Source: Roseicyclus marinus (GTDB taxonomy: Bacteria > Pseudomonadota > Alphaproteobacteria > Rhodobacterales > Rhodobacteraceae). From it: 64,000 nt of DNA. This document shows positions 3,679 to 19,780 of this stretch, one piece after another. The stretch is taken from contig NZ_AP027266.1 of the NCBI RefSeq assembly GCF_036322625.1, forward strand, positions 1,305,001-1,369,000, given 5' to 3'. A program made the translations under genes and the position numbers. The stretch's first letter is position 1; each line of letters starts with the position of its first letter. The notes below the pieces were generated by a model. The model had not been told where the DNA came from, ran no database searches, and saw only the letters and a program-made list of their open reading frames with translations.

Positions 3679-3732
3679 TCCAAACGACACGCCGCCGCGA
3701 CACAAAGCGCTCGAGCAAAGGGACGTAACAGC

Positions 3733-6084
3733 ATGCTTTTCGGATTGGATGGGGTCGAGATCGGTCTTGTGATCGTCTTCCTGACCCTCTTCGCCGCGAT
3801 CCTGACCGGCTTCCCGGTCGCTTTCGCCATCGCCGGGGCAGGGGTGATCTCCTTCGCGATCATCGCCGCCCTCGACAGCGCAGGCCTCCTGATCCATCAG
3901 GCCATCGATACGGGCTCCGCCGAATACCGCGCCCTCGTGGCCGATGGGGTCATACGCGACGCGATATCCGTCTTCCGATACCCCGAATTGCCACGGATCG
4001 AGGAACCGGTCTTCCCCGGCGGCTGGGAACAGGCGCTCGAACGCAACATCTCCTTCATCGTCAACCGCATGAACGAGCGCGTGATCGCGGGCCAGTCGAT
4101 CGAGACGCTTCTCGCCGTTCTCATGTTCGTCATGATGGGCATCGTCCTCGAACGCTCCAAGATCGCCGAGGATCTGCTGACCACCATGGCGCGCGTCTTC
4201 GGCCCGCTGCCGGGCGGTCTGGCCGTCTCCATCGTGATCGTGGGGGCCTTCCTCGCGGCCTCCACCGGGATCGTGGGCGCGACCGTGGTGACCATGGGCC
4301 TCCTGGCCCTGCCCACCATGTTGCGCAACAACTACTCGCCCGAGCTTGCCACCGGCGTCATCGCCGCCTCGGGCACGCTGGGCCAGATCATCCCGCCCTC
4401 GATCGTGATCGTTCTTCTGGGCACGCTGGTGGGTGACCTCTACGCCACCGGCCAGGAAACCCGCGCCGTTCTCGCCGGCTGCACCGATGCGCTGACCTTC
4501 CTTGGCGCTCCGGCGGTCCTGTCGGTCGGTACGCTCTTCCAGGCGGCGCTTCTGCCCGGTCTCTTCCTCGCCTTCCTCTACGGGGCCTATGCCTTCGGCT
4601 TCGCGCTCCTGCGCCCGGCCTCCGCACCGCCCGTGGTGATGGAAGGCGGCGGCGGCGAACCCGTCACCCGCAAGGAGGCGCTGACCTGGTATCTCTTCGC
4701 GCCCGTCGGCCTGATCTTCGCCGTCGTCCTCGCCGCCTCTGGCGGGATCGTGGGCAGCCAGTCGATCACCGTCTCGGACTATGCCGAGAATGACAGCTCC
4801 GGCATCCTGCGCACCAATGTCTCCGAACAATGCCAGGCCTCGATGATCGACCTGCATGGCCAGGACCGCTGGGACGAATCCGTGGCAGCCCGCGCCGCCA
4901 TGGCCGATGCGGGCCAGACCGGCGAAGCCGTCCTCCTGACCGAGGAAGAACTGGTCGCCGCCCGTGCCGCTGCGCTCGAGAACGCACCGCCCATCGGGGC
5001 AGGCGTGGCCGTGGTCTTCACGCTCCTCTCGCTCGTCCTGATCCTCGCGCGCGGCGTCTCGCCCTCGTCCAACCCCGCACCGCTGATCGCGGGTGGCATG
5101 GGCGTCATCCTCGCGCTGATCGCGGATATCCTCTTCATCTCGCCGCTGTCCTCCAGCGGATCGACCTTCCTGATCCTCGCGATCCCCTTCTTCCTGACGC
5201 TCTATGGATGCCGGGTCGCGATGGGACGGCTCTCGCAGAATGACCTTCTGCGCGTGGTCTTCCCGCCGCTCGTTCTGATCGTGGCGGTTCTGGGCTCGAT
5301 CCTCGGCGGCATCACCAACCCCACGCCCGCCGCGGCGCTGGGGGCGGCAGGGGCCATCATGCTGGCCGCCTATCGCAAGCTGAAAGAGGAAAACGGCAAG
5401 TCCAAGATCGTGATCTGGGCCTCCTTCGCGCTCGTGATCATGATCCTCTTCGGCGTGAACTTCGACCTGCGCATCACGCGCAGCGACGTTCCGCTGCAGG
5501 ACTGGATCGCCTATATCATCGCGCAGGGCGCCTATCACTTCGCCTTCTTCGGCCTCCTGTTCAGCTGCTGGGTCCTGTTCCGCTCGAACATCCTGGCCCC
5601 TGTCGTGCGCGAAACGGCCAAGGTCACCTCGATGGTCTTCACCATCCTGATCGGCTCGCAGCTCCTGAACCTCGTGCTCATCTCCTTCGGGGGTGAGCAT
5701 CACATCCAGGCCTTCCTGCGCAGCTTCGACAACGAGATGATCGTCTTCCTCGTCGTGATGCTGATCCTCTTCATCCTCGGCTTCGTGCTCGACTTCCTCG
5801 AGATCATCTACATCGTGGTCCCCATCGTGGGTCCGGTGATCTATGGCGGCACGCTCGACCCGGCCTGGGTGACGATCATGATCGCGGTCAACCTGCAGAC
5901 CTCCTTCCTGACGCCACCTTTCGGCTTCGCGCTCTTCTACCTGCGCGGCGTCGCGCCAAAATCGGTGACGACGGGCCACATCTACCGGGGCGTCATTCCC
6001 TTCGTCGGGATCCAGGTGATCGGTCTGGGCCTCCTGTGGCTCTTCCCGGGCATCGTGACGATCTTGCCGCGCCTCCTTGGCTGA
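3733..6084 (+). CDS. TRAP transporter large permease, DctM family, oversized
   Basis: Transport subunit of the TRAP system. At 783 residues it is nearly twice the usual 430 or so. Typical DctM segments are visible: GFPVAFAIAGAGV near 27-40, GASTGIVGATVVTMGLLALP-like text near 175-195, GTLGQIIPPSIVIVLLG and, near the C-terminus, QTSFLTPPFGFALFYLRGVAP. The extra length comes from hydrophilic inserts near residues 55-120 and 340-420, plus further membrane segments between the conserved halves. It is the last gene of the receptor-DctQ-DctM operon, followed by a strong terminator. Confidence 0.9.
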   Translation: MLFGLDGVEIGLVIVFLTLFAAILTGFPVAFAIAGAGVISFAIIAALDSAGLLIHQAIDTGSAEYRALVADGVIRDAISVFRYPELPRIEEPVFPGGWEQALERNISFIVNRMNERVIAGQSIETLLAVLMFVMMGIVLERSKIAEDLLTTMARVFGPLPGGLAVSIVIVGAFLAASTGIVGATVVTMGLLALPTMLRNNYSPELATGVIAASGTLGQIIPPSIVIVLLGTLVGDLYATGQETRAVLAGCTDALTFLGAPAVLSVGTLFQAALLPGLFLAFLYGAYAFGFALLRPASAPPVVMEGGGGEPVTRKEALTWYLFAPVGLIFAVVLAASGGIVGSQSITVSDYAENDSSGILRTNVSEQCQASMIDLHGQDRWDESVAARAAMADAGQTGEAVLLTEEELVAARAAALENAPPIGAGVAVVFTLLSLVLILARGVSPSSNPAPLIAGGMGVILALIADILFISPLSSSGSTFLILAIPFFLTLYGCRVAMGRLSQNDLLRVVFPPLVLIVAVLGSILGGITNPTPAAALGAAGAIMLAAYRKLKEENGKSKIVIWASFALVIMILFGVNFDLRITRSDVPLQDWIAYIIAQGAYHFAFFGLLFSCWVLFRSNILAPVVRETAKVTSMVFTILIGSQLLNLVLISFGGEHHIQAFLRSFDNEMIVFLVVMLILFILGFVLDFLEIIYIVVPIVGPVIYGGTLDPAWVTIMIAVNLQTSFLTPPFGFALFYLRGVAPKSVTTGHIYRGVIPFVGIQVIGLGLLWLFPGIVTILPRLLG

Positions 6085-6110
6085 GGGCAGGGCAGTCACC
6101 GGAAAAAGCC

Positions 6111-6138
6111 AAAGGCCGCCCCGAAACGGGCGGCCTTT
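6111..6138 (+). terminator. Terminator of the first TRAP operon
   Basis: AAAGGCCGCCC and GGGCGGCCTTT form an 11-bp perfect stem around CGAAAC, 27 bases after the dctM stop. A T-rich stretch follows on the plus strand. The flanking A and T runs could allow it to act in both directions. Confidence 0.85.
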
Positions 6139-6173
6139 GTGCTTTCCGAAAGGTAAATCCAGAAATCGCGGCG

Positions 6174-6327
6174 TTAACCTTGGTTAAGCCCCGCCGCGCC
6201 CGGCAAGGCATTCTTAACCCTGATCAAGGTTGATATTCCCTTGCCCGCGCATGCCCGCCTTAACCTTTCGTCAGGAAAGTCCTCGTGGCCTTAACCGTTC
6301 CGAAAGCTTTGGCGCGTGCTGTTAACC
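6174..6327. repeat. Cluster of six TTAACC motifs
   Basis: The spacer between two convergent genes holds TTAACC at 6174, 6214, 6260, 6291 and 6322 on the plus strand, and an inverted copy at 6182-6187 that makes a TTAACC-TT-GGTTAA palindrome. Two copies extend to TTAACC-N5-TCAGGA (6260 and 6322). TTAACC resembles half of the CtrA recognition sequence (TTAA-N7-TTAA), but the spacing is not the canonical one and no promoter is expected here. The function is unknown. Confidence 0.6.
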
Positions 6328-6351
6328 GATTGTCAGGACCTTTGCGGGCCC

Positions 6352-7188
6352 TCACTCCTCCGACCGCAGGTCGGGCAGGGTGATCTGCGCCACCTGCTGC
6401 GCGATCGGTTCGACCGACAGCGGATGGATCTGGTTCGAATAGCCGTCCGGGTCCCCGATGGGTTGCCATTGCCCGTCGACATAGACCTCCAGCGCCGGGA
6501 AACCGGCCTTGTAGCCCATCTTGGACGACCCCGGCACCCAATAGCCCAGGTAGACAAAGGGCAATCCCGCCTCGCGCGCCAGCGCCACATGGTCCAGGAT
6601 CACATGGGTTCCAAGGCTGTCGGCCATCCGGTCCGGGTCGAAAAACGAATAGACCAGGCTCAACCCGTCATCGAGGATATCGGTCAGGCAAACCGCCACC
6701 AGCGGCGCCTCCTCGCCCTGGCTCGGCAGGCTTTCGTCGCGGTATTCGATCACCCGCGTGCGGACCGGCGTTTCCTCGATCATCGCGGCGAATTCGAACA
6801 CATCCATGTCTGCCATCCCGCCATCGGCATGCCGCGCATCCAGATAGCGCCGGAACAGCGCATATTGCGCCTCCGTCGCCCAAGCCGACCGCGCACCGCG
6901 CTGCAAGCCTGAGTTGCGCTTCAACACCCGGCGATGGGCCTTTTTCGGCACGAAATCCGCCACCCGGATGCGCGCCGAAAGACAGGCCGCGCAATCGGTG
7001 CAGGACGGCCGGTAGAGCACATTCTGCGAGCGACGAAAACCCTGCTTGCTCAAGGCGTTATTGAGCTTTTCCGCCTGCTCGCCCTGCAGCGCGGTGAACA
7101 GCTTTCGCTCCCTGCGCCCATCGAGATACGGGCAGGTTTGCGGGGCCGTCACATAGAATTGCGGCGCAATGGGAAGGGTGTGGCGCAT
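6352..7188 (-). CDS. bpt: Aspartate/glutamate leucyltransferase (arginyl-tRNA--protein transferase family)
   Basis: Transfers Leu from Leu-tRNA to N-terminal Asp or Glu of proteins, marking them for the bacterial N-degron pathway (ClpS/ClpAP). The length of 278 residues is normal. Visible hallmarks are [14 protein letters not shown] near 19-32, [18 protein letters not shown] near 47-64 with the following CxxC ([11 protein letters not shown]), and the C-terminal [18 protein letters not shown] and GKVEVYVDG-like region ([13 protein letters not shown]). The start is preceded by GGAAAAGACGC. The RDD gene lies upstream and may be cotranscribed. Confidence 0.95.
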
Positions 7189-7301
7189 GCGTCTTTTCCG
7201 GCCGAAGCCGCGTGGTCAGTTCAGCCAGAGGGTGCACCAGCCCAACGGGCGCCCGCAACAGTTTTTTAGGCAAGGATTGACCGATGCCATCGTTGCTTGC
7301 G

Positions 7302-7751
7302 TCACCGCCCCGGCCGGTTGATCGCCGCCGATCCGATGAGCAGGTCATGCAGCCCCTGGTGCCGCGCGCCAAAGGCCATCATCAGGATCGAGATCACCTG
7401 CAAGATGACAAAGCCCGTCGCCACCATGTAGCCCAGCGTATGCACCACGGCCTCGCCCCCCGACAGCCGCGCCCCCGTCGCGCCCCGCAGTTCGAGGTTC
7501 ATCAACCTCATCCCCCAAGTCGCTGATCCATAAGCGATAGTTCCTGCGCGATACAGGAAATTGGTCATGATGAAAGCCAGCGGCCAGATCCACCACAGTG
7601 CCGTCAGCGTCAAAAGCCCCAGCACGAAGGTGATGGCGGTCACGATGACCACATCCACCAGCCAGGCGAACAGCCGCTTGGCCGGAACACCCTCGTAAAA
7701 GGCGGCGTCATAGTCAGGGTCGGGCAGGGTCGTAGGCATGATCCGGGACAT
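7302..7751 (-). CDS. RDD family membrane protein
   Basis: Small integral membrane protein of 149 residues with about three hydrophobic segments. The N-terminal part has the family-type sequence AKRLFAWLVDVVIV with the Asp in the first helix, then YGSATWGMRLMNLELRG, another RDD signature. RDD proteins often act as transporters or membrane accessory proteins; no specific role can be read here. I placed the start at MSRIM because GGAG lies seven bases upstream; MPTTL four codons later is an alternative. It lies between bpt and a DUF2852 gene on the same strand. Confidence 0.85.
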   Translation of the reverse strand: MSRIMPTTLPDPDYDAAFYEGVPAKRLFAWLVDVVIVTAITFVLGLLTLTALWWIWPLAFIMTNFLYRAGTIAYGSATWGMRLMNLELRGATGARLSGGEAVVHTLGYMVATGFVILQVISILMMAFGARHQGLHDLLIGSAAINRPGR

Positions 7752-7788
7752 GGCGCGGCTCCGCGTGAAAGGAAAGGGGAAAGACTGC

Positions 7789-7820
7789 AAAAAACGCCCC
7801 GCCGCACAAGCGGCAGGGCG
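7789..7820 (-). terminator. Terminator of the DUF2852 gene
   Basis: On the minus strand, CGCCCTGCCGC pairs with GCGGCGGGGCG (11 pairs, one wobble) around TTGT and is followed by six T. It lies between the DUF2852 gene and the RDD gene and separates the two transcripts. Confidence 0.88.
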
Positions 7821-7835
7821 CAGGCGCGGGGCGGT

Positions 7836-8258
7836 TCAGGCCTCGCTGCCGTCGGTCGTCTGGCGGCCACTCCTTGCGCGGTCATCCATGAACTGGTCGA
7901 ATTCCGCCTTGTCCTTGGCCTCGCGCAGGCGCTGCAAGAAGGCCTCGAACGCGTCTTGTTCCTGCTCCAGGCGGCGCAGCGTGTCGGCCTTGTAGGCGTC
8001 AAAGGCGCTGTTGCCGGAGGTCCGGTTGACACCATGGTTGGCGGTGCGGCGGCGGGACGAGCAGGAAGAATTGAACATGCGTTTGCTCCAGATCATGTAG
8101 GCAAGAAGGGCAAGGCCGATGGGCCAGAACAGGATGAAGCCCAGCACCATGGCCGCGATCCACGCGCCCTTGCCGCGCTGATCGAGCCACTCTTCGGCAC
8201 GCGAAAACCAGCCGCGCGCATCGCGCATGGGGCCGGTATTGGTCAGGGTGTCGGTCAT
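7836..8258 (-). CDS. DUF2852 family membrane protein
   Basis: Protein of 140 residues found widely in Rhodobacterales, function unknown. One or two membrane segments lie near residues 32-55 (IAAMVLGFILFWPIGLALLAY followed by MIWSKRM). A charged helical C-terminal half follows, with LRRLEQEQDAFEAFLQRLREAKDKAEFDQFMDD, probably coiled coil. The start MTDTLTN is preceded by GAGGAGACGCCG. A longer frame that extends through the tRNA gene is not real. The gene diverges from the tRNA-Ser and has its own terminator. Confidence 0.82.
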   Translation of the reverse strand: MTDTLTNTGPMRDARGWFSRAEEWLDQRGKGAWIAAMVLGFILFWPIGLALLAYMIWSKRMFNSSCSSRRRTANHGVNRTSGNSAFDAYKADTLRRLEQEQDAFEAFLQRLREAKDKAEFDQFMDDRARSGRQTTDGSEA

Positions 8259-8426
8259 CGGCGTCTCCTCTGTGGGGATGTTAATGTTAAACACATTCAC
8301 ACAGATGGGAGATCGCCTCCGATCATCAAGAGGGGCGGGGCGAAAAAAGTAAAAAAGCTTCACATCGACGGATCGGACGTATGGCTCTTGCCTTTTCGCC
8401 CATGCCTGCGCTATCCCGCCGCGAAC

Positions 8427-8516
8427 GGACAGTTGGCCGAGTGGTCGAAGGCGCACGCCTGGAAAGTGTGTAGGCGGGGAACCGTCTCGAGGGTTCGAAT
8501 CCCTCACTGTCCGCCA
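8427..8516 (+). tRNA. tRNA-Ser(GGA)
   Basis: The acceptor stem GGACAGT/ACTGTCC, discriminator G and encoded CCA are present. The anticodon stem CACGC/GTGTG encloses the loop CTGGAAA, so the anticodon is GGA (reads UCC and UCU). A long variable arm (about TAGGCGGGGAACCGTCTC) and the T arm GAGGG-TTCGAAT-CCCTC complete a class II serine tRNA. Its 3' end is duplicated at 17048-17066, marking it as the integration site of the island that follows. Confidence 0.97.
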
Positions 8517-8517
8517 C
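8499..8517 (+). repeat. Left attachment-site repeat (tRNA-Ser 3' end)
   Basis: ATCCCTCACTGTCCGCCAC overlaps the T arm and acceptor end of tRNA-Ser. It recurs in direct orientation at 17048-17066 with one mismatch (the fifth base); the last 14 bases are identical. This is the classic footprint of tyrosine-recombinase integration into a tRNA gene. Confidence 0.8.
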
Positions 8518-8646
8518 TACCCTTCCGATAACGCTTTGATTGAATTTTTGTTCCTCCGCCGTGCCCTGGTCAGGGTATCGCGCGGGGTATCATTTGGCGC
8601 CGGAGCAACGATTCCGATACTGACCTGCTCCCCGGATTGTCCTTGA

Positions 8647-8858
8647 TCAGAAGTTAAGTCGGTTCCGTGTTTGGTCCTTCTCTGACCGGTTGAAGTATTC
8701 CCGTGGCGTAAGCCCATCGAGGCTCGTGTGCGGGCGGTGGTGATTGTCGTCGTCGCGCCATGCCGCAATCAATTGGCGGGCATGGCGCAGCCCGACGAAG
8801 AGGTGCTCGTTCAGGCATTCGTCCAGGAGCCTGCCGTTGATGGGGAAGACGGCCGCCC
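8647..8858 (-). pseudogene. IS3-family transposase OrfB, C-terminal remnant A
   Basis: On the minus strand about 65 residues of an IS3-type DDE transposase remain: NGRLLDECLNEHLFVGLRHA, then AWRDDDNHHRPHTSLDGLTP, ending RNRLNF. They contain the last catalytic Glu and the arginine-rich RPHTSL motif of the rve domain. The upstream catalytic domain is missing. The 5' break lies near 8850-8860, directly against another IS3 remnant in the opposite direction. Confidence 0.8.
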
Positions 8859-8861
8859 GCG

Positions 8862-9116
8862 GGATGAACTCCTGAACGAGACGCGGTTCCCGTCCCTGGG
8901 CCATGCCCGCGCCACGCTCGCGGCCTAGCGCAAGGACAACAACACCGAACGCCCCCATTCCCCCTCGGCTGGCAGACCCCAGCCGAGTTCGCCAAGACCT
9001 ACACCCCGCAACGGGGCCTGACGCTGCGCAACCTGCAAAGCTCCGCGCCAGCCCCCGTTGCCCAACCCGCCCAAGCAGGCAAAACTCAAACCCGGAGCCC
9101 CGCTCACGCTGGATAA
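8862..9116 (+). pseudogene. IS3-family transposase OrfB, C-terminal remnant B
   Basis: On the plus strand the frame begins RDELLNETRFPSLGHARATL, hits an in-frame TAG where AAW is expected, continues RKDNNTERPHSPS, and shifts frame into WQTPAEFAKTYTPQRGLTL before a TAA. It is a different IS3 subgroup from remnant A, decayed by at least one stop and one frameshift. Element sequence may continue to about 9140. Confidence 0.75.
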
Positions 9117-9247
9117 AAGTTGGAGGCAACGTCAGGCCTGGTGCGGATCGGGAAGCGGGCCTAGGTATCCGCGCGCGGCAAACCCGTCTGCGCCTTGGTC
9201 GGCCCTTTGGCGGGTGAGCCTGGTTCCGGGTCGCGCGACGCAGGATC

Positions 9248-9664
9248 TCAACCCTCGCCGCGAAACCGCGCGATCAGTTCGGTGGGAAGCGGCGCCGATT
9301 TCAGGCCGCGCGCGGGATCTCTCACTGTCCAGACCCGGGTCTCGAAACCCTCGACGCAGAGCGTTGTGCCCTTTGTCAGCCTGTGGCGGATGTCGAAGCT
9401 GCGCTCCTTGATCTCGGCCACCTCTGTCGTGATCTCGACATCCTCGCCGTAGCGGCAGGGCACCTTGAAGATCGCGCGTGTGTCGACCAGCGGACAGCCG
9501 GCGGCAGCGAAGCGCGCCAGCATCTCTTGCTTGGGCCAGCCCGCTGCCTCGTAGAGCATCGTCGTACCGTGATCGAACCAGCGAAAGAATTGCGGGTTGA
9601 AGACGATGCCCGCAGGGTCGCAATCGCCCCATTCGATCCGGCGCTTGAGGGTGTTCGACAACAT
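9248..9664 (-). CDS. Acyl-CoA thioesterase, 4-hydroxybenzoyl-CoA thioesterase family
   Basis: Hotdog-fold thioesterase of 138 residues. The motif WGDCDPAGIVFNPQFFRWFD (residues 12-31) carries the Asp (D16) that is catalytic in the 4-hydroxybenzoyl-CoA thioesterase of Pseudomonas CBS3. Family members hydrolyse aromatic or short acyl-CoA esters. The start ATG overlaps the stop of the ligase gene (TGATG) and follows AGGGG, so the two are translationally coupled. It is the last gene of the island's catabolic operon, which suggests that it releases the free acid from an aryl-CoA made by the ligase or prevents CoA trapping. The substrate is inferred. Confidence 0.88.
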   Translation of the reverse strand: MLSNTLKRRIEWGDCDPAGIVFNPQFFRWFDHGTTMLYEAAGWPKQEMLARFAAAGCPLVDTRAIFKVPCRYGEDVEITTEVAEIKERSFDIRHRLTKGTTLCVEGFETRVWTVRDPARGLKSAPLPTELIARFRGEG

Positions 9665-11082
9665 CACTTTCCCCTTTCGTCAAAGACCCGTTTGGCCTTC
9701 ATCTGCGATTTCGGCAGCGAGTTGGGAGCCACCACTTGCACCCCGCATCGGATTTCGCAGCGGCTGCGGATTTCCCTTGCGACAGCCCCCGCCGCCGAGG
9801 CATCGCGGTGTTCGATCGTGACGGTCATCACGTCCAGGCCATCCTCTTGGGTGCGCAGATGGATCTGGAACTCGTCGCCGGTGCCTTGGACGGCGCGCAC
9901 GGCCTCTTCGATCTGGACCGGGAAGAACTTGATGCCGCGCAGGTTGATCAGATCGTCGGCGCGCCCCGTCATGCAACCCAAGGCCTTGGTATGATTGCGC
10001 CCGCAGGCACAGGGTTCCGCGCTCAGGGTGGTGTAATCGCCCACGAGAAAGCGCAGCTGCGCCGAGCTTTCCGAGGTCAGGTTGGTGCAGACCGACAGTC
10101 CCTTTTCGCCCTCGCGCGTCACCGCCAGCGTATCGGCATCGACGGTTTCCCAAAGCTGGATGTCGTCCATCAGGTGGATGAAGTTCCGCTCGCCCGACTG
10201 GTATTCAGGGCAGGAATAGCCGCCGCAATGCGGGCTTGCCTCGGTGCAGCCATAGAATTCGATCGCCGTGGCCGCCCAGAGCGACTGCAGCTTTTCGATC
10301 GTGCCCGCGACGCCCGAGAAGGGCTCACCGCCGGTGACGATCCATCTGATCGAGGAGTCGGCGGGATCGCGCCCCATCTCCTGCATGACGCGCGCGAGGT
10401 AGAAGGCGTAAGACGGCGTACAGACCAGCGTTGTCGGATTGAACCGCTCGATAAGGGCGGCGCGGGCGGGCCCGTCCATGCCGCCACCGGGGATCACCGG
10501 GAGGTTCATCGCCTGCAAGGTGTATTGCACACCCCATGCAAAGACATGAGGCCCGAAACCGACCATGGGGATCGCGCTATCGCCCTTGCGCAGACCACCT
10601 GAATAGAGCGCGCGGGCATTCGCCTGTTCCCAGAACTTGCGGTCGAAGTGGGTGTAGCGAAAGACTCTTGGCACCCCCGTGGATCCCGAGGAAGAAAACA
10701 GCATCCAGCCCCGGTCGGCCCAATCCTCGGGCCCGCAGGTGGTGTAGGTGCCATATGGCGGGTTCTGGATCGCGTCTTCCATCATCTCCTGCTTGGTGAC
10801 GACGGGCCAGTTGGCGATCAGCGTCTCGACCGAGGTGATGTCGCTCGGCGCAACACCCAGCCGATCGAAGCGCCGCCGGTAGAAGGTGCTGTTCTCATAG
10901 AGAAAGGGGGCAACAGCCGCGATCTTTTCATCCTGCACCGCGCGGATTCGGTCGCGCGTCCAAGCATCCTTGGGCGACCAGTAAGCCGCGGTTGCGGGCG
11001 TGTCGCGTTCATCGAGCGTGTCCAAAAGCAGCTGTTTCCAGCGTGTGCGGGTCTCGGCGGCGCGGTTCATCGGATGGGTCAT
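9664..11082 (-). CDS. PaaK-family aryl-CoA ligase (AMP-forming)
   Basis: Adenylate-forming CoA ligase of 472 residues related to phenylacetate-CoA ligase. Visible features are the ATP loop FSSSGSTGVPRVFRYTHFD (129-147), the adenine-binding region FYGCTEASPHCGGYSC, and the C-terminal CACGRNHTKALGCMTGRADD followed by INLRGIKFFPVQIEEA, typical of PaaK-like proteins. It would activate a carboxylic acid, probably aromatic, to its CoA thioester. It lies 53 bases after the demethylase gene and is coupled to the thioesterase. The start MTHPMNRAAE was chosen over an open extension that runs into the upstream gene; MNRAAE four codons later is possible. It does not look like full phenylacetate catabolism, because no paaABCDE genes are near. 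Confidence 0.88.
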   Translation of the reverse strand: MTHPMNRAAETRTRWKQLLLDTLDERDTPATAAYWSPKDAWTRDRIRAVQDEKIAAVAPFLYENSTFYRRRFDRLGVAPSDITSVETLIANWPVVTKQEMMEDAIQNPPYGTYTTCGPEDWADRGWMLFSSSGSTGVPRVFRYTHFDRKFWEQANARALYSGGLRKGDSAIPMVGFGPHVFAWGVQYTLQAMNLPVIPGGGMDGPARAALIERFNPTTLVCTPSYAFYLARVMQEMGRDPADSSIRWIVTGGEPFSGVAGTIEKLQSLWAATAIEFYGCTEASPHCGGYSCPEYQSGERNFIHLMDDIQLWETVDADTLAVTREGEKGLSVCTNLTSESSAQLRFLVGDYTTLSAEPCACGRNHTKALGCMTGRADDLINLRGIKFFPVQIEEAVRAVQGTGDEFQIHLRTQEDGLDVMTVTIEHRDASAAGAVAREIRSRCEIRCGVQVVAPNSLPKSQMKAKRVFDERGK

Positions 11083-11135
11083 GCCTGTTGCTCGCTCAAC
11101 TGGACGGGCTGTGCCTCGCCGCGCCCGCTTTTGTC

Positions 11136-12590
11136 TCAGACATCCTGCAAGGAACCGCGCTTGATGCCGATTTCGCTGCGATAGCTTTGCGCTGCGCGAC
11201 TGATGGGGCTGGGCGCGACGGTGGCGCGGATCTTGACCTGCTTGTGCGGTTCGATGTTGCCGGCGCTGCGCACGCCGCCCCCGTCCTCGCCCCAATGCAG
11301 GATCACTTCGGTGCCCGGTTCGGCGAAACCCGCATCGATCGAGGCCAACGACATCATGGCGCGCTCGTTCTCGGTATAGCCGGGATAGGTGGCAAGCCCG
11401 ATCAGGGTGCCGCGCGCGTCCGTGACCTTGTCGTAATGCATCCGCGCCGTGGCAGCGAGAGGCAAGGTGATGGTCAGCGGCTTGTCCGCTTGCGCGCCGC
11501 CCTCGAACTGCGCCTGCATGACCGACAGCACGTCATCTGCGTTCCAGACGAGCGTCACCTTCTTGCGATGGGGTGCGTCCTTCATCGCCTCAAGCGCGTC
11601 ACGACCGATGAAGTCGTGGTCGAACTTGATGATGTGGCCGTAATTCACGTCATACGGGGTCAGGTAATAGTCCTCGATGTTCTCGGAATAGAAGCTTCCC
11701 CCCAGCGACATCCGCATCGAGGCGTTCTTGGACGACATCCAGTCGCGGTAGCCGCTGGTGCCTTGACCGGTATAGACCGCCGACACGGGCACCGCCCACC
11801 AGCCGCTTTCGATGACGGTGGTGAAATAGGCGATCGAGCCGACCATGCGCAGGCCGTATTTCCGGCCCGCCTTCTGGATCAGGTTCTTGACCTCTCGGTA
11901 TTCCGCCCAAGGCCCGTAGATTTCCAGCCCCGGCATCCCTCCCATCGAATGGCGCATGCCCCGTGCGACGTGCGAGCCCAGCCTGATCTCGGCCGATTTG
12001 AAGAACTTGATCTCGGGAAGGGGCGCGCCATGCAACTCCTCGAGCAACTCCCAGGCTTTGGGTCCTTCGACCTGAAAGCGATAGAATTCGCGCGCCTTGG
12101 CCTTGTTCAGTGTCCACATCGGGTCAGAAGCTACGGTGACATCGAATCCCAGCGCCTCGGCGTTGTATTCGACCCATTCGGTGGTCGCCGGATTGCCGAC
12201 CACCATGTAGTCGTCCTCGCCCTGACGATAGAGGATCGCGTCGCCGATCAGGTAGCCCTCGGGCGAGCAACAGACCAGTTGCTTGGCGGCGCCGATCTCA
12301 AAATTGCGGAAGCTGTTGACCGAGAGGTATTGCGTGAAGGCCAGCGCATCGGGACCGCGCACATGGGTGGAACACATGTGATAGCTCTGGTCATGGACCG
12401 CGATGGTGTTACGCCACGCCCATTGTTCGTCGCGCCACGTGGTGAATTCGGGACGCACGCCATCGCCCGGCATCATCTGGGTGTAGATCGTCAGCGCGTT
12501 CTTGGGCGCATTCCGGAACAGATGGTCGGTGATGTTCGGAATGACCTCGAGCAGGTCATTCATGGTCCTCGGGGCGTCGGTCTGGGTCAT
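11136..12590 (-). CDS. LigM/DesA-like tetrahydrofolate-dependent aryl O-demethylase (GcvT fold)
   Basis: 484 residues, close to LigM (about 470) of Sphingobium SYK-6 and longer than glycine-cleavage GcvT or DmdA (about 365). LigM and DesA move the methyl group of vanillate, 3-O-methylgallate or syringate to tetrahydrofolate. Family-like features include WRDEQWAWRNTIAVHDQSYH near 53-72, RGPDALAFTQYL, VEGPKAWELLEELHG, ESGWWAVPVSAVYTGQGTSG near the middle, then YGHIIKFDHDFIGRDALE and KVTLVWNADDV. The start is preceded by GGAGA. It begins its own operon with the ligase and thioesterase, after a promoter covered by two palindromes. The exact substrate is unknown; another GcvT-fold demethylase role (as DmdA) is possible but less likely given the length and neighbours. 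Confidence 0.82.
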   Translation of the reverse strand: MTQTDAPRTMNDLLEVIPNITDHLFRNAPKNALTIYTQMMPGDGVRPEFTTWRDEQWAWRNTIAVHDQSYHMCSTHVRGPDALAFTQYLSVNSFRNFEIGAAKQLVCCSPEGYLIGDAILYRQGEDDYMVVGNPATTEWVEYNAEALGFDVTVASDPMWTLNKAKAREFYRFQVEGPKAWELLEELHGAPLPEIKFFKSAEIRLGSHVARGMRHSMGGMPGLEIYGPWAEYREVKNLIQKAGRKYGLRMVGSIAYFTTVIESGWWAVPVSAVYTGQGTSGYRDWMSSKNASMRMSLGGSFYSENIEDYYLTPYDVNYGHIIKFDHDFIGRDALEAMKDAPHRKKVTLVWNADDVLSVMQAQFEGGAQADKPLTITLPLAATARMHYDKVTDARGTLIGLATYPGYTENERAMMSLASIDAGFAEPGTEVILHWGEDGGGVRSAGNIEPHKQVKIRATVAPSPISRAAQSYRSEIGIKRGSLQDV

Positions 12591-12624
12591 TTTGGTGCTT
12601 CTCCGCGGAATGGTCAGGTCAACG

Positions 12625-12673
12625 AGTTGATTTATCAACTTACTAGGCATGATGAGTTGCAATGGCAACTCAT
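12625..12673 (-). promoter_or_regulatory. Promoter with two palindromic operators before the demethylase gene
   Basis: The plus strand shows AGTTGAT-TT-ATCAACT (12625-12640) and ATGAGTTGC-AATG-GCAACTCAT (12652-12673), both perfect. On the minus strand a sigma-70-like promoter fits between them: -35 TTGCCA (12668-12663) inside the distal palindrome, 17 bases, -10 TAGTAA (12645-12640) touching the proximal one. Binding would cover both promoter elements, as expected for MarR-type repression. The GTTGC/GCAAC half sites recur before dctP. Confidence 0.65.
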
Positions 12674-12684
12674 GTTTCGGGACA

Positions 12685-13989
12685 TCAGTCGAACATCGAA
12701 TTCGGAAGGAACAGGGCGAGTTGCGGGAACATGACAAGCAGCGCCAAGCAAAAGGCCATGGCAAACCAGAACGGCAGAACGCCACGAAACACCGTCGCCA
12801 TCGGGACCTTTTGCGCAATGGCCTTGACGACGAACACATTGATCCCGACCGGCGGTGTAATCATCCCCATCTCGATGACGATCACCGCAATGACCCCGAA
12901 CCAGATCGGATCGTAGCCCAGCTCCAAGATCACCGGGAAGACGATGGGGATCGTGATCACCAGCATCGACAAGGCATCCATGAACATGCCCAGCACGATA
13001 TAGGCCAGCAAGATGAGGATCAGCGACCCCAGGGCGCCGAGGCCCAGACCCACCAGCCAATCGCCAAGGTTCTGCGGGATCTGCGTCATGGCCAGAAAGG
13101 GGCTGAAGATCGCAGCGCCGATCACGATGAGATAGAGCATCGCACTGGTCTTGACGGTATCGAGAAACACGCCACGCAACCGCGCGGCATTTAGCTTTCG
13201 GCCAATCAACGCGAAGACAAGGATCAGGAACGCGCCCACACCGGAGGCCTCGACCGGGGTAAAGACCCCGGCATAGATGCCACCGATCGAGATCACGACG
13301 ACCGCCAGCAAGGGCAGCGCGCCCGTCAGCGAGGCAAGGCGTTCGGCCATCGAAACGGGTCGACCGGCCGGCGCGCTTTCGGGATCGATACGGGCGATGA
13401 TCATGATCGTCAGCACGAAAAGCGCCGTCAGTAACACCCCCGGCACGATCCCTGCCATGAAAAGGCGGCCCAACGATTCTTCGGTCAGGATGGCATAAAG
13501 GACAAAACCGGTCGAAGGTGGGATGAGATAGCCCAGCGTACCGCCAGCGGCGACCGCACCCGTGGCAAGACGGTTGGAATAGCCAAAGCGCTGCATTTCG
13601 GGAATGGCGACCTTGCCGATGGTCACAGCGGTCGCCACCGACGAACCGCTTACGGCAGAGAACCCGGCACAACCAAGGATCGAGGCCGAGGCAAGCCCGC
13701 CCCGATAGCGCCCGACCCATGAATAGGCCAGATCGTATAGCCCCCGGCTGTAGCCTGCCGCGGTCGCGATGTTGCCCATCAAGACGAAGAGCGGGATCAC
13801 GATCAACGCGTAGGCCGAGACCGAGGAAAAGGTTTCCGTGGTCAGAAGCGCGACCGCCGGGCGTGGCCCGTTCAGCATCCAAGTGCCGAAGAAGCCAGCA
13901 GCCAACATCGCCATGGCGACAGGCACCCTGAGCGCCAGCATCGCGAAAAGGCCCGCGATCGCCAGAAGGCCGATGGCCGAGGCCGTCAT
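12685..13989 (-). CDS. TRAP transporter large permease, DctM family (island)
   Basis: 434 residues, the standard DctM length, with about 12 hydrophobic segments. Recognisable motifs are GSSVATAVTIGKVAIPEM, GGTLGYLIPPSTGFVLYAILTEESLGRLF and, at the C-terminus, EMGMITPPVGINVFVVKAIA. It overlaps the small permease by four bases (ATGA). The end of the gene is followed within 95 bases by the operator region of the demethylase gene. As the import channel of the island's TRAP system it presumably brings in the aromatic substrate of the downstream enzymes. Confidence 0.93.
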   Translation of the reverse strand: MTASAIGLLAIAGLFAMLALRVPVAMAMLAAGFFGTWMLNGPRPAVALLTTETFSSVSAYALIVIPLFVLMGNIATAAGYSRGLYDLAYSWVGRYRGGLASASILGCAGFSAVSGSSVATAVTIGKVAIPEMQRFGYSNRLATGAVAAGGTLGYLIPPSTGFVLYAILTEESLGRLFMAGIVPGVLLTALFVLTIMIIARIDPESAPAGRPVSMAERLASLTGALPLLAVVVISIGGIYAGVFTPVEASGVGAFLILVFALIGRKLNAARLRGVFLDTVKTSAMLYLIVIGAAIFSPFLAMTQIPQNLGDWLVGLGLGALGSLILILLAYIVLGMFMDALSMLVITIPIVFPVILELGYDPIWFGVIAVIVIEMGMITPPVGINVFVVKAIAQKVPMATVFRGVLPFWFAMAFCLALLVMFPQLALFLPNSMFD

Positions 13990-14489
13990 CGGATCGGTCC
14001 GGGCCTGAGGATCATCCGAAGCATTTGCAGCGCCAATATGGCCGCGAAAAGCCCCATGCCGATCAGCACCAAACCGTAGAACGGCCAGATCGGAATGCGC
14101 AACAGGTTGGTCGTGTCCGCATATGCCCAGGCATCGAGCGTGCGATCGAAATAGGATCGCGTGACGAAGAACAGGACCGCCACCCCTACCACGCGATACA
14201 GGATTTCAGTGATCCACCGGCCAAGACGACCGAGGGCACCGTCCAACAGGTCGATCCGCACATGCCCATCCTCGACCGTGCAATAGGGAATGGCCAGCAT
14301 CACGACCGCGACAGAGGCCAGCTCCAGCACCTCGTTCGCGCCCAGGATCGGCGCGTTGAAGGCGTAGCGCATCACGACGCCGGCAAAGACGAAGAGCATC
14401 ATCAAGCCCAGAACCATCGCCGAGCCCATCGCCAGCCAGATGTCGAACCGGCCGCGCGGGAGCGGCCGGTCTTCAAGGTCGGGGGTCAT
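13986..14489 (-). CDS. TRAP transporter small permease, DctQ family (island)
   Basis: 167 residues with four hydrophobic segments near 17-40, 52-72, 93-112 and 133-155. The DctQ signature is present: an Asn/Glu-rich stretch (GANEVLELASVAVVMLAIPY) and EDGHVRIDLLDGAL. The start MTPDLED lies just after the stop of the receptor gene, and the stop overlaps dctM by ATGA. Large upstream extensions in the same frame overlap the receptor gene and were discarded. Confidence 0.9.
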   Translation of the reverse strand: MTPDLEDRPLPRGRFDIWLAMGSAMVLGLMMLFVFAGVVMRYAFNAPILGANEVLELASVAVVMLAIPYCTVEDGHVRIDLLDGALGRLGRWITEILYRVVGVAVLFFVTRSYFDRTLDAWAYADTTNLLRIPIWPFYGLVLIGMGLFAAILALQMLRMILRPGPIR

Positions 14490-14493
14490 CGCG

Positions 14494-15486
14494 TCAGTTC
14501 TGCAGGGCTGACACGAAAGCGCGCGCCGGGTGTCCGGCAGCCTCGGTCGCTGCGACCACCTGTTCGACGACCCCAGCAGAGGCAGCATTGAATTCCGCGG
14601 CCGCCTCGGGCGAGAGTTCGATCCATTCGCGCCCTGTTGTTTCGCGGAACATCTGCTCGCCGCGCGCCACACCGGCAAGTTGCACACCGTTCGCAACGGT
14701 GGCGATCTCGCGCCCGATCCGGTCAAAGGCCGCTCGGTGGTCCGCACTCAGGCCATCATAGGCATCGCGGTTCATGAACAGCGCAAAGGATGAAATCGTG
14801 GTGTTCATGCCCGAAGTGACGTAATTCGCCACCTCGCCCAGGCGGAAGGCATAGGTCGCTGTCGCGTCGATCATGACAGCATCGATGACGCCGGTCTGAA
14901 GCGCGTTATAGGCTTCGGCAGGCGGCATGGAGACCGGAACCGCGCCCCAAGCCTCGACGATGAGGCCGGCATTGGCGGATGGCACGCGGATCTTCATGCC
15001 TTGCACGTCGGCCACGCTGCGCACCGGCCTGTCGCGGGTGTAAAGCACGTTTTCGCCGTTGGTCCAGATCGACAGGAGATGCACGCGGCGATGCTCTTCT
15101 GACAGTAAATTCATGGCGTTCCAGATCTGCTCGGTACCATTTTCCTCGGTGATCATGCCGGGCAATTCGGCCAGCAATGTCAGCGGAAAGCGCGATGCGG
15201 TATAGCCGGGCAGGCTGAAGGCGATCTCGGCCACGCCGTTGAGCGCGCGGTCATATTGTTCGATCGGATTGCCGCCAAGTGCGCCGCCGGGAAAGATCTG
15301 CACGGTCACCGCGCCGCCCGTGGCCTCGGCGATCATGTCGGCCATCACGCCATAAACCTGTGTTTGATAGGGATGCTGGGGTGGCAGAAAATCCGCCAAT
15401 CGCATCTCGGTCTGCGCGAAAGCAGAACTGCCCGATACCGCGACCGCGCCGAGTAAAACGGCGCGGGCAAGTGCTTTGAACATCAT
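14494..15486 (-). CDS. TRAP transporter solute-binding protein, DctP family (island)
   Basis: 330 residues with a Sec signal peptide (hydrophobic 5-20, cleavage SSAFA|Q near 24). The body is DctP-like: FPGGALGGNPIEQYDRALNG, MKIRVPSANAGLIVEAWGAVPV, then MPPAEAYNALQTGVIDAVMI. GGGAGG lies five bases before the first of two adjacent ATGs. It is the first gene of dctPQM, downstream of a palindromic operator and the MarR gene. The ligand is probably the aromatic acid handled by the next operon; this is inference from context. Confidence 0.92.
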   Translation of the reverse strand: MMFKALARAVLLGAVAVSGSSAFAQTEMRLADFLPPQHPYQTQVYGVMADMIAEATGGAVTVQIFPGGALGGNPIEQYDRALNGVAEIAFSLPGYTASRFPLTLLAELPGMITEENGTEQIWNAMNLLSEEHRRVHLLSIWTNGENVLYTRDRPVRSVADVQGMKIRVPSANAGLIVEAWGAVPVSMPPAEAYNALQTGVIDAVMIDATATYAFRLGEVANYVTSGMNTTISSFALFMNRDAYDGLSADHRAAFDRIGREIATVANGVQLAGVARGEQMFRETTGREWIELSPEAAAEFNAASAGVVEQVVAATEAAGHPARAFVSALQN

Positions 15487-15513
15487 CGGAACCTCCCATT
15501 CTCGATGCAGTCA

Positions 15514-15554
15514 CGCTAGCACCAACTGTTGCAATGTCAACTTGACATCGCAAC
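15514..15554 (-). promoter_or_regulatory. Promoter and palindromic operator upstream of dctP (island)
   Basis: GTTGCAATGTCAA (15528-15540) and TTGACATCGCAAC (15542-15554) form a 13-bp inverted repeat with one mismatch around a central C. On the minus strand it contains a consensus -35 TTGACA, with a weaker -10-like TAGCGT 16 bases on. The outer GTTGC/GCAAC half sites match those before the demethylase gene, suggesting that one regulator, most simply the adjacent MarR protein, acts on both. Confidence 0.65.
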
Positions 15555-15608
15555 TTGTGGGATCGGCCACTTCTCGAGCCTATAGTCGGAAAACCGTCTG
15601 CTTTCGGG

Positions 15609-16118
15609 TCAGCGGACGGAGTCGACGTTGCGGACCATGGTGCGAATGGCCCGCAAGAACGCCTCCAGATCCTGCGGTTCGATCCCCTCGACGAGCTTCT
15701 GCTCACGGCCAAGCGCAACCTGCAGGATCGTGTCGTGCAGCGACAGGCCGGCTTCGTTAAGCCACCAGATGCGCTTGCGCTGGTCGGTCACCACTGCGTC
15801 GTAACCAAGCAACCCCTTCGCATCGAGCCGAGACAAGGCCCGGCTGGCGGCACCCTTGTCGATCTTGATGATGTCGCAGATCTGCGAGGCCTGGATGCGT
15901 GGCTCGATGGCCAGCATGGACATCACGCGCCATTCGGCGATGCCGATATCGAAACGTTCAAGATAAACCTTGGACGCCCCCCCCGACAGCGCGTTGTTCA
16001 CGGCCGACAACAGATGGGGCACATAATTTTCCAGATCGACGACCAACCGTCCGTCCCGCTCGCGTGTCGATTGCGAGATCCGGTCCGATGACACAGCTTC
16101 GTCCCCGTGTTCTGTCAT
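15609..16118 (-). CDS. MarR-family transcriptional regulator (island)
   Basis: 169 residues with the winged-helix DNA-binding domain around 60-125: IAEWRVMSMLAIEPRIQASQ, then ICDIIKIDKGAASRALSRLD as the recognition region and DQRKRIWWLNEAG as the wing. MarR proteins usually repress nearby catabolic genes and release DNA on binding an aromatic ligand. In Sphingobium SYK-6 a MarR-type protein (DesR) controls ligM and desA, which fits this context. I chose the ATG at 16118; a GTG five codons upstream has a better ribosome site (AAGAGGT) and may be the true start. It is transcribed toward dctP. Confidence 0.88.
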   Translation of the reverse strand: MTEHGDEAVSSDRISQSTRERDGRLVVDLENYVPHLLSAVNNALSGGASKVYLERFDIGIAEWRVMSMLAIEPRIQASQICDIIKIDKGAASRALSRLDAKGLLGYDAVVTDQRKRIWWLNEAGLSLHDTILQVALGREQKLVEGIEPQDLEAFLRAIRTMVRNVDSVR

Positions 16119-16439: not shown

Positions 16440-17047
16440 GTAAGCGTTGTGCCGATCACACGGTGACGGCTCAGCTCCAAGAGAGCAGATCGTCGATCTG
16501 GCTCCGCTTGTGGCCTTGGACGATGGCGGTGAGCGTGGCGGCCAGCCAGGTATGGGGATCGACGCCGTTCATCTTGCAGGTCTCGATTGGCGAGGCGATG
16601 ACGGCCCAGTTTTCAGCGCCGGCATCATGGCCAGCGAAGAGTGCATTTTTTTGTTTAGGGCAATGGGGCGGATGGTGCGCTCGACTGCGTTGCTGTCGAT
16701 CTCGACACGGCCATCGGTCAAGAAGCGACCAAGGCCCTCGCGGTATTTGGCGATGTAGGACAGCGCCTCGCCCAAGGGCGATTTGGCCGAGGCGCGTCCG
16801 CGGTGATGGATCAGCCAATCATCAATTCGTGTGAGGGTCGGAGCGGATCGATCCGGTCGGGTGGCGGGGTCACTGCCGCGGATCTCGGATTCGATGGCAC
16901 AGAGATCACGGATGAGAGCCACGCCTTCCTCGGCAATCGGCGCAGGGCCGGCGCGGGTGATCTCGACCAGCTTGCGCCGCGCATGCGCCCAGAAATAGGC
17001 AAGCTGGATACCAGGGCCAGCACGGTCTGGAATGATCAGCCGGTTTT
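16440..17047 (-). mobile_element. IS66-family element, right-end remnant
   Basis: The remnant begins at 16440 with GTAAGCG, consistent with the GTAA terminus of IS66-family inverted repeats. It contains the last third of the TnpC transposase and stops at 17047, one base before the right attachment repeat. The left end, tnpA, tnpB and most of tnpC are missing. Confidence 0.7.
16474..17040 (-). pseudogene. IS66-family transposase TnpC, C-terminal remnant with frameshift
   Basis: Reading on the minus strand: RLIIPDRAGPGIQLAYFWAH, then RRKLVEITRAGPAP, ALIRDLCAIESEIRG and LTDGRVEIDSNAVERTIRPI. These match the DDE_Tnp_IS66 domain including the late Glu motif. After IALNKK the frame breaks in a run of seven A; restoring one A gives KNALFAGHDAGAENWAVIAS, then IETCKMNGVDPHTWL and QIDDLLSW, the usual IS66 C-terminus. 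About 340 N-terminal residues are absent, so it cannot be functional. Confidence 0.85.
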
Positions 17048-18155: not shown

Positions 18156-18229
18156 CTCCTCCACGAACAGGCGGCGCGGGGCGAGGGGTCCCGTGCCGCA
18201 TCTTGCAAAGTTACGGAGGAGGAGCCGTC

Positions 18230-19201
18230 ATGTCGTTCACCAAGCGTGCTGTCTTGAAACTGTCCTGCGCGGCTCTCGTCGCGCTTTCGCCGCTTCCCGC
18301 GCTCGCGCAGGATTGGGAACCGCGCCGCCCCATCGATTTCGTCATCATGGCCGGTCCCGGCGGCGGTGCCGACCAGATCGCGCGCTTCATCCAGTCGGTG
18401 GCCGAGCGCTATGACCTGACCTCGCGCCCGCTCGTGCCCAACAACCAGGGCGGCGGTTCGGGGGCCGAGGCGCTCTTGCATCTCAACAACGCCAGCGATC
18501 CCGATCACACGATCCTCGTGACGCTGAATTCCTTCTTCACCACGCCCTTGCGTCAGGCCAATCTCGGCATCGACATCCAGACCTTCACGCCCGTGGCGAT
18601 GATGGGCGTCGATCCCTTCGTGCTCTGGGTGCACCGCGACAGCGGCATCACCAATTTCGACCAGTGGCTCGAAACGGTGCGCGGCATGAACGGCGATTAC
18701 GTCATGGGCGGCACCGGCTCGGGGCAGGAAGACAGCATCGTCATCGCCTTCCTGTCCAATGCCTATGACCTCGACATCACCTATATCCCCTATGATGGCG
18801 GCGGTGCCGTGGCGCGCGATCTGGCGGGCCAGCAGATCATGGCCACCGTGAACAACCCCGCCGAGGCCAAGGGCTTCTACGAGGCGGGCGATGTCGTGCC
18901 GCTTCTGGCCTTCTCCGACGAACGTCTGCCCGCATTCCCCGATATCCCGACCATCCGCGAACTGGGGCATGATTTCTCCTATGCCAACCAGCGGGCCGTC
19001 GTGGGCGCGCCCGGCATGTCGGACGAGGCGGCGGCCTATTACCAGACCGTCTTCACCCAGGTCTACGAAAGCGCCGAATGGCAGGGCTATCTCGAATCCG
19101 AAAGCCTCTCGCCGCTCTGGATGAGCCCCGAGGAACAGCGCGCCTATTGGGACACCCAGGTCGCCAATCACCGCGAACTTCTGGCCTCTCTGGGCCAGTA
19201 A
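18230..19201 (+). CDS. tctC: Tripartite tricarboxylate transporter receptor, TctC family
   Basis: Periplasmic binding protein of a TTT transporter, 323 residues. The signal peptide ends at PALAQ near 25. RPIDFVIMAGPGGGADQIAR and GSGAEALLHLNN carry the Bug/TctC ligand-loop pattern, and YIPYDGGGAVARDLAGQQI is the second characteristic loop. GGAGGAGGAGCC precedes the ATG. It is followed by tctB and tctA, completing the system. Known ligands in the family are citrate, tartrate, terephthalate and other small acids; the ligand here is unknown. Confidence 0.93.
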   Translation: MSFTKRAVLKLSCAALVALSPLPALAQDWEPRRPIDFVIMAGPGGGADQIARFIQSVAERYDLTSRPLVPNNQGGGSGAEALLHLNNASDPDHTILVTLNSFFTTPLRQANLGIDIQTFTPVAMMGVDPFVLWVHRDSGITNFDQWLETVRGMNGDYVMGGTGSGQEDSIVIAFLSNAYDLDITYIPYDGGGAVARDLAGQQIMATVNNPAEAKGFYEAGDVVPLLAFSDERLPAFPDIPTIRELGHDFSYANQRAVVGAPGMSDEAAAYYQTVFTQVYESAEWQGYLESESLSPLWMSPEEQRAYWDTQVANHRELLASLGQ

Positions 19202-19264
19202 TCCGCCCTCGGGCAACAGGGCCCCGTCCGCGCCGTGCCGGCCGGACGGGCAAGGGGAAGACGA

Positions 19265-19768
19265 ATGCGCTACGGCGAACTTCTGACGGCGGGCGTTCTG
19301 GCGCTTTTTTCCATCTACCTGATGTGGAAGAGCACGGAACTGCCCATCGGCTTCATCGAGGGCAGGGGGCCAGGCGGCGGTGCCTGGCCTTTCTGGCTTT
19401 CGGCCATCATGCTGCTGAGCTGCATCCTGGTCATGGTCAAATGGTGGCGCGGGACCTCTCCCGCCTCGCAATCGGATGAACCGTTTCTCGACGGCTATGG
19501 CTGGCGCACGCTGGTCCTGGTGGGGGGCGGGCTCCTGGGCTTTGTCGCGCTCATCGACGTCTTGTCGATGTATGGGGCGATCGCGGTCTTCCTGATCTAC
19601 TACCTGCGGTTTCTCGGGCGGCATTCCTGGGCCCTGACACTGGTCTTTGCCATCGTGGCCCCCATCGCGCTCTTCTTCTTCTTCGAAGGGGCGATGCGCA
19701 TCACCATGCCGAGCGGCTGGTCCTTCACCGACCCCGTTTTCGACATCCTTTACGACATCATCTACTAG
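19265..19768 (+). CDS. tctB: Tripartite tricarboxylate transporter small subunit, TctB family
   Basis: 167 residues with four hydrophobic segments (about 8-22, 42-60, 80-97 and 118-145). The sequence GFIEGRGPGGGAWPFWLSAIML near 30-52 is the TctB N-terminal signature. It lies 63 bases after tctC and 12 before tctA, as in typical TTT operons. Confidence 0.9.
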   Translation: MRYGELLTAGVLALFSIYLMWKSTELPIGFIEGRGPGGGAWPFWLSAIMLLSCILVMVKWWRGTSPASQSDEPFLDGYGWRTLVLVGGGLLGFVALIDVLSMYGAIAVFLIYYLRFLGRHSWALTLVFAIVAPIALFFFFEGAMRITMPSGWSFTDPVFDILYDIIY

Positions 19769-19780
19769 GCGCGCCTCATC

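Follow-up and report, generated by a model that had tools for sequence, protein, structure and literature searches.

The described systems closest to the locus treated here are the aryl O-demethylases LigM and DesA of Sphingobium SYK-6, with their MarR regulator DesR, and the 4-chlorobenzoate (fcb) clusters, in which a coenzyme A (CoA) ligase, a dehalogenase, a thioesterase and a tripartite ATP-independent periplasmic (TRAP) transporter are combined. Here we describe a gene cluster of Roseicyclus marinus (assembly GCF_036322625.1, contig NZ_AP027266.1), located at 9248-16118 on the minus strand of the window, by which we mean the whole 64,000-nucleotide stretch that was analysed (positions 1305001-1369000 of a single 3.55-Mb contig). 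Open reading frames and family profiles give the transcription order marR, dctP, dctQ, dctM, DEM, LIG, TE, where DEM is a GcvT-fold protein of the LigM/DesA superfamily, LIG a PaaK-like ligase and TE a hotdog thioesterase, and where the stop codon of LIG overlaps the start of TE as TGATG. This confirmed the gene set and the coupling on one strand that had been read from the sequence alone, before any database search (the original prediction).

DEM shares with LigM and DesA the fold, the catalytic Gln, His and Tyr residues and MarR control, but it belongs to a separate clade with a long stem, falls below the curated cut-offs of both families, carries Asn in place of Arg122, and has a CoA ligase and a thioesterase as partners, with no metF-ligH operon in the window's cluster. 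The likeness to the fcb clusters lies in the CoA ligase, the TRAP transporter, the thioesterase of the 4-hydroxybenzoyl-CoA type and the putative activation of the para position as a thioester, whereas here a demethylase of the methyltransferase fold takes the place of the dehalogenase. LIG and TE stand side by side as in fcb, no 4-chlorobenzoyl-CoA dehalogenase (crotonase fold) is found among the cluster genes, and the PaaK-like type of LIG presumably belongs to a different branch from the fcb ligases. In the hydroxycinnamate region of Agrobacterium fabrum SpG8-1b, a CoA ligase, a LigM-type demethylase and a MarR regulator are likewise found together, but in that pathway the chain is shortened first and the demethylase comes in at the end, on free vanillate (PMC7797058), whereas our loci show only a thiolase, in 3 of the 16 relatives described below, and no conserved hydratase and dehydrogenase. 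In Rhodopseudomonas palustris, too, aromatic acids are taken up by TRAP and ATP-binding cassette (ABC) systems, TarPQM and CouPSTU, whose genes adjoin CoA-ligase catabolic genes controlled by a MarR regulator (PMC3610893); in comparison, the aromatic ligand of the window's DctP is putative.

What is new here, as far as sequence comparison tells, is a separate clade of the LigM/DesA superfamily, encoded alongside a CoA ligase and a thioesterase in one conserved, co-regulated module. The reaction type itself, aryl O-demethylation, is already known, and a version acting on CoA esters would possibly be a new route. Our preferred reading, in which we infer both the substrate and the order of the steps, is that a methoxybenzoate is activated, demethylated as its CoA ester onto tetrahydrofolate and then hydrolysed; we offer it tentatively, at a likelihood somewhat short of even. 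On a slightly more guarded estimate still, DEM would be the first tetrahydrofolate-dependent O-demethylase acting on an aroyl-CoA thioester, with LIG activating and TE releasing, as the demethylating counterpart of 4-chlorobenzoyl-CoA dehalogenation. A literature search limited to open-licence papers brought up none on methoxybenzoyl-CoA demethylation. The observation behind the original prediction is confirmed and its interpretation partly supported, methyl transfer from the CoA ester as opposed to the free acid being a step that we infer.

Conservation of the gene set

A search covering about 85,000 species genomes of bacteria and archaea returned close DEM proteins (68-86% identity) at 16 loci, in Pararhodobacter, Maritimibacter, Sulfitobacter, a metagenome-assembled genome (MAG) of the Rhizobiaceae and other alphaproteobacterial MAGs. 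DEM, LIG and TE follow one another in the same order in 14 of these 16 relatives, with a thiolase inserted between the first two genes in three of the loci, and marR is also present in 13 of the 14. Because this gene order repeats in other genera, the cluster is not a product of chance. Within 8 kb on each side, only DEM, LIG, TE, marR and transporter genes recur in the majority of relatives, and a conserved hydratase or dehydrogenase was not seen in that range around the relatives' DEM. The expected recurrence of the genes elsewhere was also borne out by strict pairing: among 393 Rhodobacterales genomes, orthologues of DEM (>=83%) and of LIG (>=70%) are confined to the identical 4, beyond which the next-best LIG match is at most 36%. 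The chance of such a coincidence is about 1e-9 under independence, a figure to be read with the relatedness of the genomes in mind, and the DEM-LIG-TE neighbourhood is far beyond chance.

The demethylase-like protein and its partners

The best solved relative of DEM is LigM (1e-119), and DEM scores 489 bits against the NCBIfam model for DesA (NF047633, cut-off 800) and 454 bits against that for LigM (NF047885, cut-off 580). Falling under both curated cut-offs, it is ruled out as an equivalog of LigM or DesA; other Rhodobacterales proteins do exceed the LigM cut-off. A tree of 88 relatives places DEM in a clade of its own, supported at 100/100 and on a long stem, outside the LigM clade, with long-branch warnings for its sister. 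When its AlphaFold2 model (predicted local distance difference test score, 86) was used as a Foldseek query, the top 16 matches were all LigM, with TM-scores of 0.83-0.88 (query) and 0.92-0.95 (target), against only about 0.6 for GcvT, DMGDH and DmdA. Family scores, tree and fold together thus rule out a DmdA, GcvT or sarcosine enzyme, so that the phylogenetic check set by the original prediction was passed; its description of a LigM/DesA-like demethylase holds for the superfamily and fails for identity with either enzyme. The residues Gln57, His60 and Tyr247, which we take to be catalytic in LigM (LigM numbering), are retained in all 17 DEM sequences, and the position of LigM Arg122 is Asn in the same 17 and Arg in every row of the LigM and DesA clades. 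DEM is presumably a tetrahydrofolate-dependent aryl O-demethylase of a separate clade within the LigM/DesA superfamily. A literature search for homarine or another N-methyl compound as its substrate yielded no lead.

There are also other LigM-like proteins. In a commoner, separate Rhodobacterales group (L019-L037), TRAP genes accompany a LigM-type demethylase in which Arg122 is retained; in two examples read over a wider range (L152 and L157), no PaaK-like ligase or 4HBT thioesterase was found. A second, distant LigM-like protein of 425 aa is encoded at 5962-7239 of L050, and in L160 (G078; 3614-10919) a TAXI-type TRAP transporter, a protein with a formyltransferase domain and an Amidohydro_2 protein are encoded near a LigM-like demethylase whose position 122 is Gly, possibly another undescribed demethylation cluster.

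The sequence of LIG offers no clear hint of its substrate: it scores 207 bits against NCBIfam PaaK, under the cut-off of 646, and its best PDB matches, 6hdw (2-hydroxyisobutyryl-CoA synthetase) and 2y27 (PaaK), are equally near. The best PDB matches of TE are 5wh9 and 1bvq, both 4-hydroxybenzoyl-CoA thioesterases, and the catalytic Asp within its GDCDPAGIV motif is retained in the relatives. The analogy to fcb that had been drawn at the outset is chemically reasonable.

Candidate operators

Candidate MarR operators lie between marR and dctP and upstream of DEM (Table 1). In the window alone, the 2 sites found compare with 0.42 expected, and 8 of 100 shuffles also reach 2, which is not significant; the weight of the pattern comes from the relatives and from the whole-genome count. 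Exact copies of GTTGNCATTGCAAC number only two in the genome of R. marinus, one upstream of DEM (the 12656-12669 site) and one upstream of dctP. In every one of the 13 marR-bearing relatives, the 300 bp in front of DEM contain exactly two candidate sites that read GTTGNCNNNNCAAC or the reverse of it, usually spaced by about 36 bp, and their density there is 6.7 per kb vs 0.06 per kb elsewhere in the loci. Further GTTGNCNNNNCAAC sites precede transporter operons in several relatives. The operator upstream of DEM occurs only in the 13 of 16 relatives that carry marR: the three others (L041, L049 and L052) have no GTTGNCNNNNCAAC sites upstream of DEM and carry a CTATAGNNCTATAG-like repeat instead, marR being absent in L041 and not found beside DEM in L049 and L052. 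From the candidate operators shared by DEM and dctP, the transporter and the enzymes appear to form one regulon.

Transport, downstream degradation and fate of the methyl group

TRAP uptake, which the original prediction had counted as part of the pathway, holds for the window and not for the conserved core, since 10 of the 16 relatives have a Liv-type ABC transporter in the locus, in nine beside marR. The Liv-type binding protein of L042, the one compared, is very close to 4evs, 4f06 and 4ey3 (2e-120 to 8e-90), which we take to be hydroxybenzoate-binding proteins of R. palustris, and the solved chains nearest to the window's DctP are 5im2, 7nr2 and 4p56, presumably binders of aromatic acids. 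By sequence similarity, the transporters of most relatives resemble 4-hydroxybenzoate-binding proteins. One of the latter kind, RPA0985, is reported to bind 4-hydroxybenzoate strongly, with a shift of 29.5 C, and has been grouped with proteins for benzenes bearing a single carboxyl (PMC3223731).

PobA is encoded in all 16 genomes searched, that of R. marinus included, and each of the 16 also has a ring-cleavage dioxygenase of the intradiol PcaGH or the extradiol LigB type; in R. marinus pobA, pcaG, pcaH and other pca genes are clustered together. Gentisate was rejected as a common end product, gentisate dioxygenase being not found in the R. marinus genome and over the cut-off in 3 of 16. An intradiol dioxygenase, an iron alcohol dehydrogenase and an FAD (flavin adenine dinucleotide) monooxygenase resembling a hydroxyquinol pathway lie on the other side of DEM in L050 (12627-15827), and that route was set aside as it is not conserved in other relatives. 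Elsewhere in the R. marinus genome (G000:C1:448000-467999, L146), gene order and protein starts suggest a ben/cat pathway (benzoate dioxygenase/catechol) with its own Liv-type transporter.

Neither metF nor ligH is present in the window's cluster, and the only PF02219 methylenetetrahydrofolate reductase (MTHFR) of the genome lies about 1.1 Mb away. This absence, remarked on in the original prediction, does not hold in general: directly upstream of DEM in L051, on the same strand, a DUF5981 (MTHFR C-terminal) gene and a MetF-like gene occupy 6325-7874, which suggests a folate-recycling pair. Their adjacency to DEM supports tetrahydrofolate as the methyl acceptor. DUF5981 occurs in 6 of the 16 genomes.

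Proposed pathway and alternatives

In the pathway that we propose, a methoxylated benzoic acid, likeliest a para-methoxy acid such as 4-methoxybenzoate (p-anisate) and alternatively a vanillate-type acid, would be taken up by the MarR-controlled transporter (TRAP here, Liv-type ABC in most relatives) and converted by LIG to its CoA thioester. DEM would then transfer the O-methyl group to tetrahydrofolate while the thioester is still attached, TE would hydrolyse the hydroxybenzoyl-CoA to the free hydroxy acid, and PobA and protocatechuate dioxygenase would degrade what is released. The strongly electron-withdrawing thioester would improve the para phenolate as a leaving group; by the same electronic logic, 4-chlorobenzoate needs CoA activation before its dehalogenase acts. 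A thioesterase that releases a free acid is to be understood only if the thioester is required at some step, for which DEM is the one remaining conserved enzyme. Demethylation at the thioester level would explain why the ligase and the thioesterase are kept with the demethylase despite a free-acid end product, and why the presumed carboxylate-facing Arg could be dispensed with.

One can also envision that DEM, like LigM, demethylates the acid in its free form, and that the aroyl-CoA formed by LIG and cleared by TE acts as the effector of MarR or is removed as a side product. CouR is a precedent for a CoA ester as the effector of a MarR-type regulator, and marR belongs stably to the module with a candidate operator of its own; in SYK-6, ligM is controlled by a MarR regulator, DesR, that responds to free acids (PMC6888825). 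Against this, L041 retains DEM-LIG-TE without marR and with a different candidate operator, so that LIG and TE persist without that regulator, and the loss of Arg122 in DEM would be surprising for a free acid, which should need the carboxylate contact; we regard this scheme as unlikely. A side-chain route, to which we give no better prospects, would have LIG activating a methoxycinnamate or an aroylacetate, shortening to methoxybenzoyl-CoA, release of methoxybenzoate by TE and DEM acting last on the free acid. It has a model in the ferulate pathway of A. fabrum SpG8-1b, with its CoA synthase, hydratase, dehydrogenase, thiolase and LigM-type demethylase (Atu1420) under MarR and GntR control (PMC7797058), and the thiolase between DEM and LIG in L039, L040 and L054 would suit it. 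The lack of a conserved hydratase or dehydrogenase within 8 kb of the relatives' DEM speaks against such shortening, as does the binding protein found in 10 of the 16 relatives, which groups with binders of single-carboxyl benzenes and not of phenylpropenoids.

The order of steps cannot be read from sequence, and the free methoxy acid might be demethylated first, the hydroxybenzoate being then activated for an unlinked CoA-dependent pathway with TE as a proofreader; CoA routes of the 'box' and 'paa' types do occur in bacteria. This we consider distinctly improbable, as all 16 genomes have PobA and a protocatechuate-type dioxygenase, which are free-acid enzymes, and a thioester made merely for hydrolysis would be futile. 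That the aromatic interpretation is wrong altogether, with DEM removing an N- or S-methyl group from another substrate, is very improbable indeed: GcvT-fold enzymes also take such compounds and GcvT, DMGDH and DmdA are among the fold matches, but the TM-scores of 0.88-0.95 to LigM vs about 0.6 to the others, the retained catalytic residues of LigM and the transporters of the aromatic-acid type all argue otherwise.

Demethylation on the CoA ester has its own points to answer, and the following weigh against it. While the gene set, its co-inheritance, the shared candidate operator, the predicted fold, the catalytic residues and the downstream genes are established, the activities of DEM, LIG and TE are predicted. 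The loss of Arg122 fits a masked carboxylate because this residue is, on our assumption, the contact of the substrate carboxylate in LigM; it is also lost in four other divergent DEM relatives (L015, L021, L022 and L025), which makes it less telling for a CoA ester in particular, and no LIG/TE pair lies beside L015 or L021, the two of these loci with surroundings read. The loss reads as a changed substrate end of the pocket and not as a specific mark of a CoA ester. In L049, LIG (60%) is located elsewhere in the genome and not beside DEM, and in the draft genome of L052, which has DEM and TE, no LIG was found. Three relatives (L039, 9537-10736; L040, 9538-10737; L054, 9454-10731) have within the operon a divergent thiolase, scoring below the TIGR01930 cut-off, for which the CoA-ester reading does not account. 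The 16 relatives are not independent of one another, and PobA is also common in the order at large (253 of 386 genomes, 66%), so that, given this base rate and the relatedness of the genomes, its presence in all 16 is moderate evidence only.

Borders of the cluster and neighbouring genes

Transposase remnants flank the cluster on both sides (Table 1), and DEM was not found in the 3 other genomes of the genus that were searched; the cluster was therefore probably acquired by the R. marinus lineage, and a recent gain would fit. Just past it (18203-21283), the window encodes TctC and TctA, components of a tripartite tricarboxylate transporter; a small open reading frame between them takes the tctB position. 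Additional genes are found at single relatives or groups of them: TE is followed by a gene of the GFA family (PF04828) in five loci of the Pararhodobacter type (L039, L040, L042, L043 and L044), and in L041, the marR-less cluster of Sulfitobacter sp. EhC04, a pair resembling indolepyruvate:ferredoxin oxidoreductase (iorAB) lies between dctM and DEM (4160-7833).

Table 1. Features of the R. marinus cluster and its borders (window coordinates)
Feature	Position	Strand	Basis
IS3-type transposase remnant, downstream border	8647-9129	-	PF13683 rve_3 7e-15
TE, 4HBT hotdog thioesterase, 138 residues, last gene of the operon	9248-9664	-	PF13279 3.9e-15
LIG, PaaK-like acyl/aryl-CoA ligase, 472 aa	9664-11082	-	PF14535 + PF00501
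DEM, GcvT-fold protein, 484 aa	11136-12590	-	PF01571 3e-37
Second candidate MarR operator upstream of DEM, GTTGATAAATCAAC	12626-12639	.	inverted repeat AGTTGATAAATCAACT
Candidate MarR operator upstream of DEM, GTTGCCATTGCAAC within ATGAGTTGCCATTGCAACTCAT	12656-12669	-	motif search
dctM, TRAP large permease	12685-13989	-	PF06808 8.7e-105
dctQ, TRAP small permease	13986-14489	-	PF04290 1.3e-24
dctP, TRAP solute-binding protein	14494-15486	-	PF03480 2.2e-44
Candidate MarR operator between marR and dctP, GTTGACATTGCAAC	15528-15541	-	motif search
marR-type regulator	15609-16118	-	PF12802 1.7e-08
IS66 transposase remnant, upstream border	16569-16922	-	PF03050 2.7e-20

Implications

Even if demethylation on the thioester should prove untrue, the locus represents a demethylase clade of its own that is strictly partnered at the gene level and has a candidate operator, found in Rhodobacterales including Maritimibacter and Pararhodobacter, with isolates among them such as Maritimibacter alkaliphilus HTCC2654 (L046). 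If it is true, it would explain an oxygen-independent, folate-linked removal of a para-methoxy group whose phenolate otherwise leaves poorly. That would provide an extra route for lignin-derived methoxy acids besides the Rieske and P450 demethylases, and would extend the enzyme class to para-methoxy acids.

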